From Gemmatimonadetes bacterium SCN 70-22 (GTDB taxonomy: Bacteria > Gemmatimonadota > Gemmatimonadetes > Gemmatimonadales > Gemmatimonadaceae), in assembly GCA_001724275.1 (NCBI GenBank), contig MEDZ01000004.1, positions 62,001-126,000 on the forward strand: DNA of 64,000 bases, read 5' to 3'. Each line of letters opens with the position of its first letter. Positions within the stretch are counted from its first letter, which is position 1. The translations under genes were made by a program, and so were the position numbers. Shown here in pieces: positions 34,792-39,590 of the stretch. Under the pieces are notes generated by a model. It saw only the letters and a program-made list of their open reading frames with translations, had not been told where the DNA came from and did not search any database.

Positions 34792-35406
34792 CTACGAACC
34801 GATGATCGCCCCGTAGAGGGCGCGGCCACCGGGGTTCACTTCCGGTTCCGCCAGGGGGGCGGCTTCCATCTGGTCCAACTCGCCAAGGAGGGACTCGAGA
34901 TCCGCGTCCCCCAGGTCGCTGATCGAGGGGTGCACCGCCAGCCCCGAGTAGGCCCGGGACGCCGCACGCGGGGTATCGGCGCGCGCCAGCGTCGGCATCC
35001 CCGAGAGGGAGTCGTCCTTCCAGGCCATCACGCTGTCGACCGCCGTCGCCGGCGCGTCGCCCAGGAACGAGCGCACGACCGCGACCGAGATCCCGCCCAG
35101 GGAAATGAAGGTGATGGCGGCCGCGAGCCGGAAGAGCATCGGCGACCGTCGCGCCGGCTGCGGCCGACGGCCCGCCGGTGCCACGGGGCGCGGCAACGCG
35201 GCGACGATTCCCGCGGTGTCGACCGCCGGCACCCGAAGCCCCGCAAACGCACGCCGGGCCGAGCGCAGCACCGCGAACTCGGCTGCACAGCTCTCGCACG
35301 CGGCGAGGTGCGCCTCGACCCGCTCCCGCTCGGGGGCGGGAAGCGCGTCGTGCAGGAGTTCGGGCAACAGCTCCCGCATCTCGATGGACGAACAGTCAGT
35401 CGGCAT
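34792..35406 (-). CDS. Anti-sigma factor with zinc-binding domain and one membrane helix
   Basis: About 204 residues. The N-terminal ZAS-type motif HLAACESCAAEF (His-x3-Cys-x2-Cys) is the hallmark of zinc-containing anti-sigma factors, and a single transmembrane helix lies around residues 105-125 (MLFRLAAAITFISLGGISVAVV). The rest is presumably periplasmic. It overlaps the ECF sigma gene by 11 bases, so it very likely binds and silences that sigma factor. Confidence 0.85.
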   Translation of the reverse strand: MPTDCSSIEMRELLPELLHDALPAPERERVEAHLAACESCAAEFAVLRSARRAFAGLRVPAVDTAGIVAALPRPVAPAGRRPQPARRSPMLFRLAAAITFISLGGISVAVVRSFLGDAPATAVDSVMAWKDDSLSGMPTLARADTPRAASRAYSGLAVHPSISDLGDADLESLLGELDQMEAAPLAEPEVNPGGRALYGAIIGS

Positions 35407-35953
35407 GGAGCGTCTCCTTGACCTGCCGCAGGGCGTTGTGATAGTGCACGCGTGCCGCTCCCTCCGTGGTGCCCACCACGCCTGCAATTTCCTTGTAGGA
35501 CATTCCGTCGTTCACGCGCAGCATGAACACCTCGCGCTGGGTCGCTGTCAGTCGCCCGATGGCGAACCGCATCTTCTGTTGCGCTTCGTCGGCGATGAGC
35601 GTGTCCAGCGCGTCATATTCCGTCGCCACATCGCCGTCCTGCAATTCCGTCATTTCCCGCTGTCGCCGTCCGGTTCGACGCCGGTCCAGCACCAGCCGCC
35701 GCGCGATCGTGAACAGCCAGGTCCGCAGCGAACTCTCCCCGCGAAAGGCATCCAGCGACCCGAAGGCCCGCACGAACGCGTCCTGCACCACCTCCTCCGC
35801 CCCCTCGCGCACCCCGAGGCTGGCCACGTAGCGCGCGACCGCCGGGGCATGCCGCGCCACCAGGCGGCTGGCTGCCCGTTCGTCACCCGCGCGCCAGCGC
35901 GAGATCAACTCCTCGTCCGGCGATTCGACGCCCGGTGCAGTTTCCGCAGTCAT
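35396..35953 (-). CDS. ECF-type RNA polymerase sigma factor
   Basis: A 185-residue group-IV sigma factor. Region 2 (ELISRWRAGDERAASRLV, EEVVQDAFVRAF, SSLRTWLFTIARRLVLD) and region 4 (LTATQREVFMLRVNDGMSYKEIAGVVGTTEGAARV) are both visible and separated by an acidic linker. ATG at 35953 starts shortly before region 2. It is cotranscribed with its anti-sigma factor and a Spy-like protein, and diverges from the phosphodiesterase gene. The stimulus is unknown. Confidence 0.92.
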   Translation of the reverse strand: MTAETAPGVESPDEELISRWRAGDERAASRLVARHAPAVARYVASLGVREGAEEVVQDAFVRAFGSLDAFRGESSLRTWLFTIARRLVLDRRRTGRRQREMTELQDGDVATEYDALDTLIADEAQQKMRFAIGRLTATQREVFMLRVNDGMSYKEIAGVVGTTEGAARVHYHNALRQVKETLHAD

Positions 35954-36051
35954 GCGTTTCCGTCCCGTGAGACGCCCTCCGGGGCCCGGTGTTAAGATGG
36001 ATGACACCACACCGCACTTCGCGACGGGAACACCCGAACCGCTCCCGAGGA

Positions 36052-36750
36052 ATGGAAGTCATTGCCCATCGCGGCATGCCGCGCCAGGCACCAGAGAATA
36101 CACTCGCCGGCTTTGCCCTCGCCATCGAGGCCCACGCCGACGGCATCGAGCTGGACGTCCACGCGACGCGCGATGGCGTGATCGTCGTGCATCATGACCC
36201 GTCCCTTCCCCGCCCGGTCAGCGCTCCCGCGGGGGAGACGGGGCGAGCGATCGCTTCCGTGACCCTGGCGGAGCTCCGCGTGGCAATCGCGGGAGTCGTG
36301 GCGGTGCCGACGCTCGAGGAGACACTCGCCCTCGTCGCCGGACGCGCGACGGTCTACGTGGAGATCAAGGCGGCGGGAATCGAGTCCCTGGTGGTCGATT
36401 GCCTTCGGCGGTACGGGGGATCCTGCGCCGTGCATTCGTTCGATCACCGCGTCTCCAGCCGAGTTCACGAGCTGAACCCCGCTCTCCCCACGGGAGTCCT
36501 CTCCGCCAGCTACCTGCTGGAGCCCGAGCGCGCCCTGCGAGTGGCAGGGGGGCGCGACTTCTGGCAGTGGTGGGAGATGATCGACGCGCCGCTCGTCGAG
36601 CGCGTGCACCACGCCGGTGGGCGCGTCGTGGCGTGGACGGTGAACGCCCCGGAGCACGTGGCCCGCCTCGAGGCGCTCGGTGTCGACGCCATCTGCACCG
36701 ACGTCCCCGACCAGATGGCACGAATCGTACGGGGCGCTCACGTGCGCTGA
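36052..36750 (+). CDS. Glycerophosphodiester phosphodiesterase
   Basis: A 232-residue GDPD-fold TIM barrel hydrolysing glycerophosphodiesters. It opens with IAHRGMPRQAPENTLAGF (the HRG...ENT signature) and ELDVHATRDGVIVVHHDP (metal and catalytic residues), ending with WTVNAPEHVARLEALGVDAICTDVPD. No signal peptide is seen, so it is probably cytoplasmic. ATG at 36052 abuts the conserved strand; AGGA is directly adjacent to it. It diverges from the ECF sigma gene. Confidence 0.9.
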   Translation: MEVIAHRGMPRQAPENTLAGFALAIEAHADGIELDVHATRDGVIVVHHDPSLPRPVSAPAGETGRAIASVTLAELRVAIAGVVAVPTLEETLALVAGRATVYVEIKAAGIESLVVDCLRRYGGSCAVHSFDHRVSSRVHELNPALPTGVLSASYLLEPERALRVAGGRDFWQWWEMIDAPLVERVHHAGGRVVAWTVNAPEHVARLEALGVDAICTDVPDQMARIVRGAHVR

Positions 36751-36859: not shown

Positions 36860-38305
36860 ATGAGAGCGACCCTCCCCCTCGTGCTCGGGGCGACGACGTT
36901 GGCGTGCGCGACACGACAGCCGTCCAGTGCCCCGGCCCCCACCCCCACTCCATCCGTCGCCCAGGCGGACACGGGAACCAAGGCGCCCCCTGCCCCGGCG
37001 GCGCTCAGCCTCCCGAATGCCGATCCGTTCCCGAGCACGTACCGGCCGTTCCCCTCGCGGGCCACGGTCATCAGGAACGCGACGATCATGACGGCGGCGG
37101 GACCGACGATCCGCGGAGCGTCGATTCTCCTGCAGGGCGGCAAGATCGCGGCGGTCGGGGCCAACATCGCCGTGCCGTCCGACGCCGTGGTCATCGACGG
37201 CTCGGGGAAGTACGTCACCCCGGGAATCATCGATACGCACACGCACCTGGGCGTGTATCCGGCGCCGGGCGTGGATGCCCTCAGCGACGGCAACGAGGCG
37301 ACGAACCCGTCAACGCCATACGTCTGGGCCGAGCACTCGGTCTACGCGCAGGATCCGCAGTTCCCACGAGCGCTGGCCGCCGGGGTGACGACCATCCAGG
37401 TCCTCCCCGGCTCGGCGAACCTGATCGGGGGACGGAGCGTCGTGCTCAAGGTCGTCCCCTCGCGCACCGTGCGCGGGATGAAGTTCCCGGGCGCCAAGTA
37501 CGGACTCAAGCAGGCGTGCGGCGAGAATCCCAAGCGCGTGTACGCCAACCGCGGCCCCTCCACCCGCATGGGGAACGTGGCCGGGTGGCGCGCGCAGTAC
37601 ATCCAGGCGGAACAATACCGTCGCCGGTGGGATCGCTGGCTCGCGGATCGCAAGGGCGAGCCCCCCGCGCGCGACCTCGGGCTCGAGACGCTGGCCGAGG
37701 TGCTTCGCGGAAACATCCTGGTACAGTGGCACTGCTACACGGCCAATGACATGGAAGGGGCGATGGAAGTCGCCGACGAATTCGGCTTCCAGATCCGCTC
37801 GTTCCATCACGGCGTGGAGGCCTACAAGCTCGCCGACATCCTGGCGCAGAAGGGGATCGCTGCGTCGCTCTGGTCCGATTGGGGCGGCTTCAAGATCGAG
37901 GCGATGGATGGCGTACGAGCCAACCTGGCGCTCGTGCACGCCGCCGGCGCGCGCGCGATCGTGCACTCGGACGACGCGAGCGGGATGCAGCGACTGAACC
38001 AGGACGCCGCCAAGTCCATTGCGGAGGCGCGGACCCTGGGCATCGACATCACGGAGGACGAGGCCATTCGCTGGCTCACCATCAACCCGGCGTGGGCGCT
38101 GGGGCTCGACGACCGCATCGGAACGCTGGAGCCGGGCAAGAATGCCGACGTCGTCCTGTGGAGCGGGAATCCCTTCAGCATCTACTCCAAGGCAGAGAAG
38201 GTCTGGACCGATGGCGCCCTCCTCTTCGACATGCTCGATCCGTCAAAGCGGTGGCGTACCGACTTCGAGCTCGGCTTCGTCCCCCCGGCCGAGGGAGGGC
38301 GCTGA
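36860..38305 (+). CDS. Exported amidohydrolase-family metalloenzyme (catalytically complete member of a tandem pair)
   Basis: A 481-residue protein. A hydrophobic N-terminus (LPLVLGATTLACA) suggests export, possibly as a lipoprotein although the lipobox is imperfect. The amidohydrolase core has TPGIIDTHTHLG (HxH, ~126), histidines in VQWHCYTAND and RSFHHGVEAYK and an aspartate in IVHSDDAS, the usual metal set. C-terminal LEPGKNADVVLWSGNPF is typical of imidazolonepropionase- or dihydroorotase-like members. The substrate is unknown. It is followed after one base by a paralogue without metal ligands. Confidence 0.85.
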   Translation: MRATLPLVLGATTLACATRQPSSAPAPTPTPSVAQADTGTKAPPAPAALSLPNADPFPSTYRPFPSRATVIRNATIMTAAGPTIRGASILLQGGKIAAVGANIAVPSDAVVIDGSGKYVTPGIIDTHTHLGVYPAPGVDALSDGNEATNPSTPYVWAEHSVYAQDPQFPRALAAGVTTIQVLPGSANLIGGRSVVLKVVPSRTVRGMKFPGAKYGLKQACGENPKRVYANRGPSTRMGNVAGWRAQYIQAEQYRRRWDRWLADRKGEPPARDLGLETLAEVLRGNILVQWHCYTANDMEGAMEVADEFGFQIRSFHHGVEAYKLADILAQKGIAASLWSDWGGFKIEAMDGVRANLALVHAAGARAIVHSDDASGMQRLNQDAAKSIAEARTLGIDITEDEAIRWLTINPAWALGLDDRIGTLEPGKNADVVLWSGNPFSIYSKAEKVWTDGALLFDMLDPSKRWRTDFELGFVPPAEGGR

Positions 38306-38306
38306 G

Positions 38307-39590
38307 ATGAAGACCATCAACCACGCCCTCGCGGCGCTCGCTTGCGCGGCGACCCTGCTTGCCAGCGCCCCGGCCCAGGCGCAGGTCCTGGCCATCACGG
38401 GGGCCAAGGTCTACCCGGTGAGCGGACCGGCCATCGAGAACGGAACGGTCCTGGTCCGCGATGGCCGCATCGTGGCCGTCGGGAGCAACGTCACCATCCC
38501 GGCCGACGCGCGGCGCATCGATGCCACGGGCAAGTGGGTGACGCCGGGCATCTTCAATGCCACCACCTCGCTCGGACTCACGGAAATCGGCGCCGTGCAG
38601 GCGACGGTCGATCTCTCCGCCCGCGGACAGGGCGACGGCATCACCCCCTCGCTGCGCGTGTGGGAGGGGTTCAATCCCGCGTCGCCACTCCTGCAGGTGA
38701 CGCGCAATGACGGCGTGACCACGGCGGGGCTGATTCCACGCGGTGGATTGGTGGGAGGCCAGGGGGCGGTCGTCGTCCTCGGCGACGGGACGCTGGGCGA
38801 CGTCCTCCTCAAGGGACCGGTGGCGGTGTTTGCCGACATCGGCTCCAAGGGGAGCGATCGCGGCGCCTCTCGCGCCGAAGTCTACCAGCGTCTCCGCGCC
38901 GTGCTGGCGGAGGCGCGCGAGTGGCCCCGCCGGCGCGACCGCTACGATGCCAACGGCTCGCGACCGCTTGCCGCACGGCCGGTGGACCTGGAGGCGTTGC
39001 AGCCGGTGCTGCGCGGCGAGATCCCGCTTGCCGTCGACGCCGACCGGGCCAGCGACATCCTGGTGGCGCTCGACATCGCCAAGGAGTTCGGGCTCAAGCT
39101 CGTCCTGACCTCGGCGACCGAGGGGTGGAAGGTGGCCGACCGGATCGCGGCGGCCAATGCCTTCGTGGTGGTGGGGGCGCTGAACAACATCCCCCGCGAC
39201 TTCTCCACGCTGGGGGCGCGCCAGGAGAACGCCGCGCTGTTGCAGCAGGCGGGGGCGAAGGTGGTCATCGCCGGCGGAGCCGACGCCTTCAACGCCCGCA
39301 ACGTCAAGTACGAGGCTGGGGTGGCGGTGGCGTTCGGGATGCCGTGGGACGCGGCGCTGCGCGCGGTGACGCTCACGCCGGCCGAGATGTACGGCGTCGC
39401 CAACCGGGTGGGCTCGCTCCAGCCGGGGCGCGACGCGACGCTGGTCATCTGGAGCGGCGACCCGTTCGAGCTGTACACGCGTGCCGAGAAGGTGTACGTC
39501 CGCGGCGTAGAGGTGCAACGTCCGTCGCGCCAGGACGAGTTGATGCGGCGCTACCGGACGCTTCCGCCGGACTACAGGGCGAAGCCCTGA
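38307..39590 (+). CDS. Amidohydrolase-fold paralogue lacking the metal ligands (probable pseudoenzyme)
   Basis: A 427-residue protein with signal peptide (ALAALACAATLLASAPAQAQ). The fold markers are kept (GTVLVRDGRIVAVGSNV; LQPGRDATLVIWSGDPFELY). The HxH site, however, reads TPGIFNATTSLG, and the later His and Asp positions are replaced (ILVALDIAKEF, LVLTSATEGWK, VIAGGADAFN). Hydrolysis is therefore unlikely by the normal mechanism, and a structural or regulatory partner role for the preceding enzyme is plausible. It starts one base after the stop of gene one (GCTGAGATG), so co-translation is expected. Confidence 0.82.
   Translation: MKTINHALAALACAATLLASAPAQAQVLAITGAKVYPVSGPAIENGTVLVRDGRIVAVGSNVTIPADARRIDATGKWVTPGIFNATTSLGLTEIGAVQATVDLSARGQGDGITPSLRVWEGFNPASPLLQVTRNDGVTTAGLIPRGGLVGGQGAVVVLGDGTLGDVLLKGPVAVFADIGSKGSDRGASRAEVYQRLRAVLAEAREWPRRRDRYDANGSRPLAARPVDLEALQPVLRGEIPLAVDADRASDILVALDIAKEFGLKLVLTSATEGWKVADRIAAANAFVVVGALNNIPRDFSTLGARQENAALLQQAGAKVVIAGGADAFNARNVKYEAGVAVAFGMPWDAALRAVTLTPAEMYGVANRVGSLQPGRDATLVIWSGDPFELYTRAEKVYVRGVEVQRPSRQDELMRRYRTLPPDYRAKP

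Follow-up and report, generated by a model that had tools for sequence, protein, structure and literature searches.

Why would a bacterium keep, directly behind the gene of an exported amidohydrolase, a second gene for a paralogue without metal-binding histidines? The question is raised by two genes, here called A and B, in a 64,000-nucleotide stretch of the genome of Gemmatimonadetes bacterium SCN 70-22 (contig MEDZ01000004.1, positions 62,001 to 126,000 of the forward strand), referred to as the window. The two proteins are probably the subunits of one exported heteromeric amidohydrolase, of which B, judged from its sequence, would be a catalytically dead structural or regulatory subunit. 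A heteromeric enzyme with a pseudoenzyme partner had been proposed in an earlier, sequence-only reading of the window, and is supported by the co-occurrence of the two genes, their order, their overlapping reading frames in most relatives, 36 natural A-B fusions and the grouping of the inactive forms in one clade. In the following, genomes, contigs and loci are given as G, C and L numbers.

The gene pair and its metal ligands

A and B lie on the same strand at the positions originally assigned to them, with a single G between the TGA of A and the ATG of B (Table 1). They are paralogues with 29% identity (124 of 425 aligned positions). Both score above the cut-off of 25 bits for the Pfam family PF01979 (Amidohydro_1), A with 68.8 bits and B with 40.7 bits, and for each the best solved relative by sequence is the Thermotoga protein of PDB entry 3ooq. 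The NCBIfam matches of A and B, among the 25 listed for each protein, are all below cut-off, and they assign no activity to the family of A. A may be a lipoprotein. In a crude scan, 145 of 235 A rows had a lipobox-like motif, and the box of the A protein in the window is an atypical, non-canonical TLAC.

A contains the motifs DTHTH (H127 and H129), QWHCY (H291), SFHHG (H316/H317) and VHSDD (D371 and D372). The HTH, two later His and the Asp first noticed in A correspond to H127, H129, H291, H317 and D371. At the aligned places B reads NATTS, AVDAD, LTSAT and AGGAD, with Thr, Ser, Asp, Ser and Ala at the five ligand positions. In addition, the Lys in the motif GLKxACGENP is invariant in 26 of 26 active rows (alignment residue 168 of window positions 37007-38302). 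It may bridge metals, as a Lys does in other amidohydrolases.

The same division is found among the relatives. The ligand tally covers loci L001-L115 and L131-L260 with the duplicate L211 excluded; it omits B of L168, L195, L246, L257 and L260 and A of L247, which were too short or split for the filter. All five ligands are present in 239 of 242 A rows, the remaining three being fragments with gaps. HxH occurs in 0 of 239 B rows. None of the four His is kept in 211 B rows and one is kept in 28. When the Asp is included, 191 B rows keep none of the five ligands, 43 keep one and 5 keep two. The Asp column holds Asp in 25 of the 239 rows, and Asp or Glu stands there or one column on in 158. By alignment, the loss of the Asp ligand is less certain than that of the four His. 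The description of B as stripped of every metal ligand is thus firm for the His, but not for the Asp, where D326 adjoins the aligned position. The acidic residue near this position may serve a role other than metal binding.

B could instead be an enzyme with a different chemistry, either metal-free or with another metal site. Its strongly conserved acidic residues (D385, E272, D250 and E388) would be compatible with such an activity. However, no alternative His/Cys metal site was found in B, as no His or Cys column exceeds 41% in 137 non-redundant B rows, and the former His positions hold many different residues, apart from a preference for Gly at the place of H317. A different chemistry is highly improbable.

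Pairing of A and B across bacterial genomes

A sample of 298 Gemmatimonadota genomes was searched with B and separately with A. In the 115 loci fetched, which contain B relatives of 41-100% identity, B is directly downstream of A on the same strand in 114. The exception is L100 (genome G036), where B and a partial A lie at the ends of two different contigs. Either gene was found above the cut-offs in 119 genomes, all of which contain both genes and none only one. Applied per genome, the cut-offs are 54% identity or more for A relatives, listed in 118 genomes, and 41% or more for B relatives, listed in 119. The difference is due to G119, whose A is present in the fetched locus L079. Five genomes (G093, G194, G207, G245 and G270) were counted from coordinates only, by which A and B adjoin. 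The genome searches scored few candidates per genome, so that weak or fragmentary single genes could be missed. One irregular locus, L269:1426-7396 in genome G158, contains a full A, a gene for a 681-residue ATPase-like protein, and then a 3' fragment of A with B. The 681-residue protein has the P-loop GMNEAGKS and is OLD-type nuclease-like by eye, and the arrangement resembles that left by an insertion which duplicated part of A.

Genome contigs were also scanned with a profile built from the alignment of active forms, and the best 80 of at least 405 relatives were analysed. These loci were selected by A and not by B and hence test for A without B. By title, four are from Gemmatimonadota, most from Alpha- and Gammaproteobacteria, a few from Myxococcota or Deltaproteobacteria, and others are unclassified. 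A B unit follows A directly or is on the same chain in 80 of 80 loci; it is cut by the contig end in L168 and split over two frames in L133.

Whole genomes of three further groups were searched with a natural fusion as query, at E-value cut-offs of 1e-40 for Myxococcota and 1e-30 for Alphaproteobacteria and for Gammaproteobacteria. The system is present in 57 of 195, 5 of 142 and 11 of 185 genomes, respectively. Both units are found in 57/57 (56 listed directly and G314 by inspection), 5/5 and 11/11 of these. The A and B units are on separate contigs in G320 and G332, and G643 is of the X-A type described below. For G314, two A-range matches and no B-range match were listed, and a B-like gene without HxH lies beside each match. 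These two loci, L260:2642-5363 and L272:3648-6226, are divergent pairs of an HxH amidohydrolase and a motif-less neighbour, and in the tree the A of L260 splits off below every other active form that has a partner. The alphaproteobacterial genome G511 has two separate A-B pairs (L270 and L271). At the cut-offs used, no B without A was found in the Gemmatimonadota, Myxococcota, Alphaproteobacteria and Gammaproteobacteria samples. At the same cut-offs, the inactive form accompanies the active one in all four groups. Neither of the refuting results named in the sequence-only reading was obtained: B was not seen to occur widely alone, and its sequences have no conserved His or Cys for another metal site.

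A and B form a single stop-free frame in 36 cases, of which 35 are among the 57 Myxococcota genomes with the system and one is the Deltaproteobacteria assembly L210; the order is A-B in all of these fusions. The 203 separate pairs are all on the same strand. Junctions were counted in the 189 of these 203 pairs in which a simple rule assigned a B start followed by a hydrophobic stretch; the median distance is -4 nucleotides, and 163 of the 189 pairs overlap. The one-base gap noted in the sequence-only reading is thus true of the pair in the window but is a local feature. A further fusion, suggested by an open-frame figure for the gammaproteobacterium G805, was rejected because two separate frames are present. 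In this locus (L267:1036-3714) the A frame ends early, before the B gene, at 397 residues that match profile positions 33-387, by either a frameshift or a true truncation.

The adjacency of A and B is not merely that of a frozen region, because the commonest other neighbour cluster is found in just 66 of 260 loci (flank lengths differ, and clusters include shadow frames). Constant pairing and coupled reading frames would also fit a dedicated folding or assembly helper that leaves A after maturation. Such a role is very unlikely for a protein that stays on the same chain as A in the 36 fusions.

Selection, fold and origin of the inactive unit

In eight close pairs from the phylum, the ratio of nonsynonymous to synonymous substitution rates (dN/dS, by the method of Nei and Gojobori) ranges from 0.02 to 0.22 in A and from 0.015 to 0.35 in B. 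B is, by this estimate, under purifying selection. The loss of the catalytic His is what a decaying duplicate without function would display, but decay is made unlikely by these ratios, and B occurs in every examined genome with A above the cut-offs. Decay or a chance origin of B is contradicted by dN/dS and conservation, and a functionless B is scarcely credible.

The structure of B was predicted with AlphaFold2 from an alignment of 37 rows, with a predicted local distance difference test score (pLDDT) of 89.9 and a predicted template modelling score (pTM) of 0.90. The best PDB match of the model in Foldseek is 3ooq, with a TM-score of 0.84-0.88, suggesting that B keeps a 3ooq-like amidohydrolase fold. 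A Pyxidicoccus A-B fusion of 870 residues was modelled from 36 rows with a pLDDT of 79.7 and a pTM of 0.83, and its best match is also 3ooq. The alignment contained fusions only; a mixed alignment was dropped since single B rows aligned to the A half. A random placement of the halves should yield a pTM of about 0.5, so the observed value suggests a defined arrangement. By the definition of pTM, the model suggests that the two halves, which are of similar size, are placed relative to each other with some confidence.

The positions conserved specifically in B include R133, D250, I251, W274, V287, P296, F299, G338, D385 and E388, as well as a C-terminal tail with R408, L412, R415 and Y416. The tail residues are not conserved or are absent in A, and the tail is a candidate partner contact. 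In the place of the HGxEAYK of A, moreover, B relatives share a conserved motif of their own (G269-x-x-E272-x-W274, together with V287 and P296). This motif, the acidic residue that often remains near the old Asp position and the signal peptide of B would suit a periplasmic binding protein that holds the substrate of A, or its product, in its pocket and acts as a reservoir, sensor or decoy, with no stable A complex. However, the overlapping frames and single-chain fusions indicate a fixed pairing, and the C-terminal tail is conserved in B and not in A. A binding protein of this kind, including the substrate-binding decoy suggested in the sequence-only reading, is unlikely.

A second system combines the same kinds of unit differently. 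Fifteen loci (L116-L130) with B relatives of 34-40% identity, including one on contig C36 of the same genome as the window (G000), have a related three-unit arrangement. In 11 of them, a chain of about 900-1170 residues joins, in one frame, an inactive unit, X, on the N-terminal side to an active unit on the C-terminal side, and is followed by a separate inactive gene. The three units are separate in L122 and L127, and L124 and L125 are cut by contig ends. Ligands were tallied in 12 sets, with L121, L124 and L125 left out. The active unit has 5/5 ligands in 12/12 sets and the B-type unit 0/5 in 12/12. The X unit has no ligand in 9 sets and one in 3, and every X row has a gap at the D371 position. 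The occurrence of X-A-B beside A-B means that dead and live units occur together in two different proportions. A probable X-A-B triad from Bacteroidota is found in L263:4215-7478, on the Hymenobacter volaticus plasmid NZ_CP095062.1, where the annotated genes break inside the active unit.

In a tree of 85 sequences, a chosen subset, one branch splits the active from the inactive forms with a support of 100/100. Four single-gene relatives, three from Bacillota and one from an actinomycete, all have HxH and are on the active side of the tree (100/100); no second amidohydrolase was found near them within a flank of 3 kb on each side. A single loss of activity fits the tree as the simplest account; the root is not fixed, as the midpoint root serves for drawing only. 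The long branches of the X units (tX) could be drawn to B by artefact.

Constant pairing, fixed order, the fusions, selection on B, the single inactive group in the tree, the pTM of the fusion and the X-A-B system together lead us to prefer a heteromeric enzyme. Its most likely origin is the duplication of a single-gene ancestor of the 3ooq type, followed by the loss of the metal site in one copy; the enzyme would then have become dependent on the dead copy as a subunit. A would hold the sole complete metal site and do the chemistry. B would be retained as a dead structural or regulatory subunit, made beside A from frames that abut or overlap and, in many myxobacteria, within one polypeptide with A. 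We infer that A binds B and needs it, and, from the signal peptides, that both are extracytoplasmic.

Several observations weigh against this heteromer. Any two functionally linked genes that are inherited together should lie side by side, co-occur and show correlated distances (for A and B, r = 0.86 over 237 loci), and none of these features proves contact. B is less conserved than A, with a mean entropy of 2.01 versus 1.43. The residual acidic residue and the occasional single His tallied above suggest that the old metal site of B is not wholly erased. The mean pLDDT of the fusion model is 79.7, and the other four models are lower, at 63.9-72.9. Finally, the neighbours of the pair differ between clades.

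A wider proposal can be made only tentatively, and we hold it to be somewhat doubtful. A-B and X-A-B may represent a widespread and so far undescribed class of hetero-oligomeric exported amidohydrolases, built with one (A-B) or two (X-A plus B) dead paralogues for each active unit. The dead units would go back to one ancient event in which the metal site was lost, and would have taken up a new job, such as allosteric control or the positioning of a long peptide substrate, with the ratio of dead to active units built in.

Genomic context and comparison with known systems

The closest relatives of A and B in their own genome are the two proteins themselves and the second cluster on contig C36. 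In the window, a GDPD-family gene (35989-36750, +) lies upstream of A. Divergent from it are genes for an extracytoplasmic function (ECF) sigma factor (35396-36010, -) and then a putative zf-HC2 anti-sigma factor (34792-35487, -). A promoter and terminator scan found none.

Table 1. Coordinates of the gene pair, its sequence features and the second cluster of the same genome (window positions unless a contig is given)
Feature	Coordinates	Strand	Basis
Gene A, exported amidohydrolase with all five metal ligands, 481 aa (P0001)	36860..38305	+	best PDB match 3ooq, E 3.5e-69
A N-terminal export signal, possibly an atypical lipoprotein signal (..GATTLAC)	36860..36907	+	sequence, by eye; crude lipobox scan of relatives
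A HxH ligands H127, H129	37238..37246	+	alignment, ligand tally
A ligand H291	37730..37732	+	alignment, ligand tally
A ligand H317	37808..37810	+	alignment, ligand tally
A ligand D371	37970..37972	+	alignment, ligand tally
Junction TGA-G-ATG, a single base between the stop of A and the start of B	38303..38309	+	sequence
Gene B, exported amidohydrolase paralogue without metal-binding His, 427 aa (P0002)	38307..39590	+	sequence, AlphaFold2, Foldseek
B Sec-type signal peptide	38307..38381	+	by eye
B NATTS replacing D-x-HxH	38556..38570	+	alignment
B D244 replacing H291	39036..39038	+	alignment
B S269 replacing H317 (usually Gly in B relatives)	39111..39113	+	alignment
B A325 aligned to D371, then D326 (acidic residue beside old ligand position)	39279..39284	+	alignment
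B-specific conserved C-terminal tail	39528..39554	+	conservation comparison
X-A chain (1101-aa frame, inactive plus active unit), then separate inactive 472-aa amidohydrolase	G000:C36:13716-18436 (L130:5717-10437)		

The neighbours in other genomes give a hint of the substrate. A relative of POT-type peptide transporters is encoded on the strand of the pair in 23 of 260 loci, most of these from sphingomonads and other Alphaproteobacteria by record title, and a relative of M16 peptidase-domain proteins is on the same strand in 31 of 260 loci, from Gemmatimonadota. A Qipengyuania plasmid has, annotated in a row, a peptide MFS transporter, an amidohydrolase (A) and an amidohydrolase family protein (B). 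The transporters and peptidases of these clades weakly suggest a peptide or a related amide as substrate; the suggestion is weak because the neighbours are not the same from clade to clade.

Among solved structures, 3ooq from Thermotoga maritima is the top sequence match for A as well as for B, and the top structural match for the B and fusion models. Its HxH, His, His and Asp align with those of A, but the entry holds one kind of chain. No paper on 3ooq was found among the texts listed by a literature search, and a search on TM0814, presumably the name of the same protein, gave nothing relevant. Dihydroorotase models are only weak matches, with at best 43.8 bits of 786 for A and 22.5 of 442 for B. 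The best structure is 3ooq, and B does not belong to the dihydroorotase family.

The CRMP or dihydropyrimidinase-related proteins have the amidohydrolase fold, have lost the metal ligands and form hetero-oligomers; they are signalling proteins of animals. Chains of this type are only weak PDB sequence matches to A and B. The weaker matches of A and B also include amidohydrolases of the peptidase type, namely the L-Arg/L-Lys carboxypeptidase Cc2672 (3mtw) and the Caulobacter Xaa-Pro dipeptidase type (NF051886, with 61.1 and 54.1 bits against an NCBI cut-off of 500). An inactive partner is not known for either type. No description of an active/inactive amidohydrolase pair of the A-B type was found in the literature covered, which excludes most subscription journals.

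If the heteromer exists, many database entries named amidohydrolase would be non-catalytic subunits; the Qipengyuania pair bears such names. Assays of A alone may then fail for want of B. The separate, fused and triple versions, together with the single-gene HxH relatives, make the question of why a dead copy is kept testable.

The clearest parallel comes from the aspartate transcarbamoylase of Pseudomonas aeruginosa. There, an inactive dihydroorotase-homologous chain (pDHO) associates 1:1 with the enzyme and is needed for activity, and fused pseudo-dihydroorotase domains without zinc ligands are also described (PMC7053772). As expected of a pseudoenzyme partner that works like pDHO, B has lost its catalytic His, is kept under selection and is encoded with its active partner, and the natural fusions and the pTM of the fusion model point indirectly to a stoichiometric complex. 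The two systems differ in that the active partner of pDHO is a transcarbamoylase and not a paralogue, whereas A and B share a fold and both have export signals. By analogy, pDHO would provide a clear precedent for the mode in which B may work.

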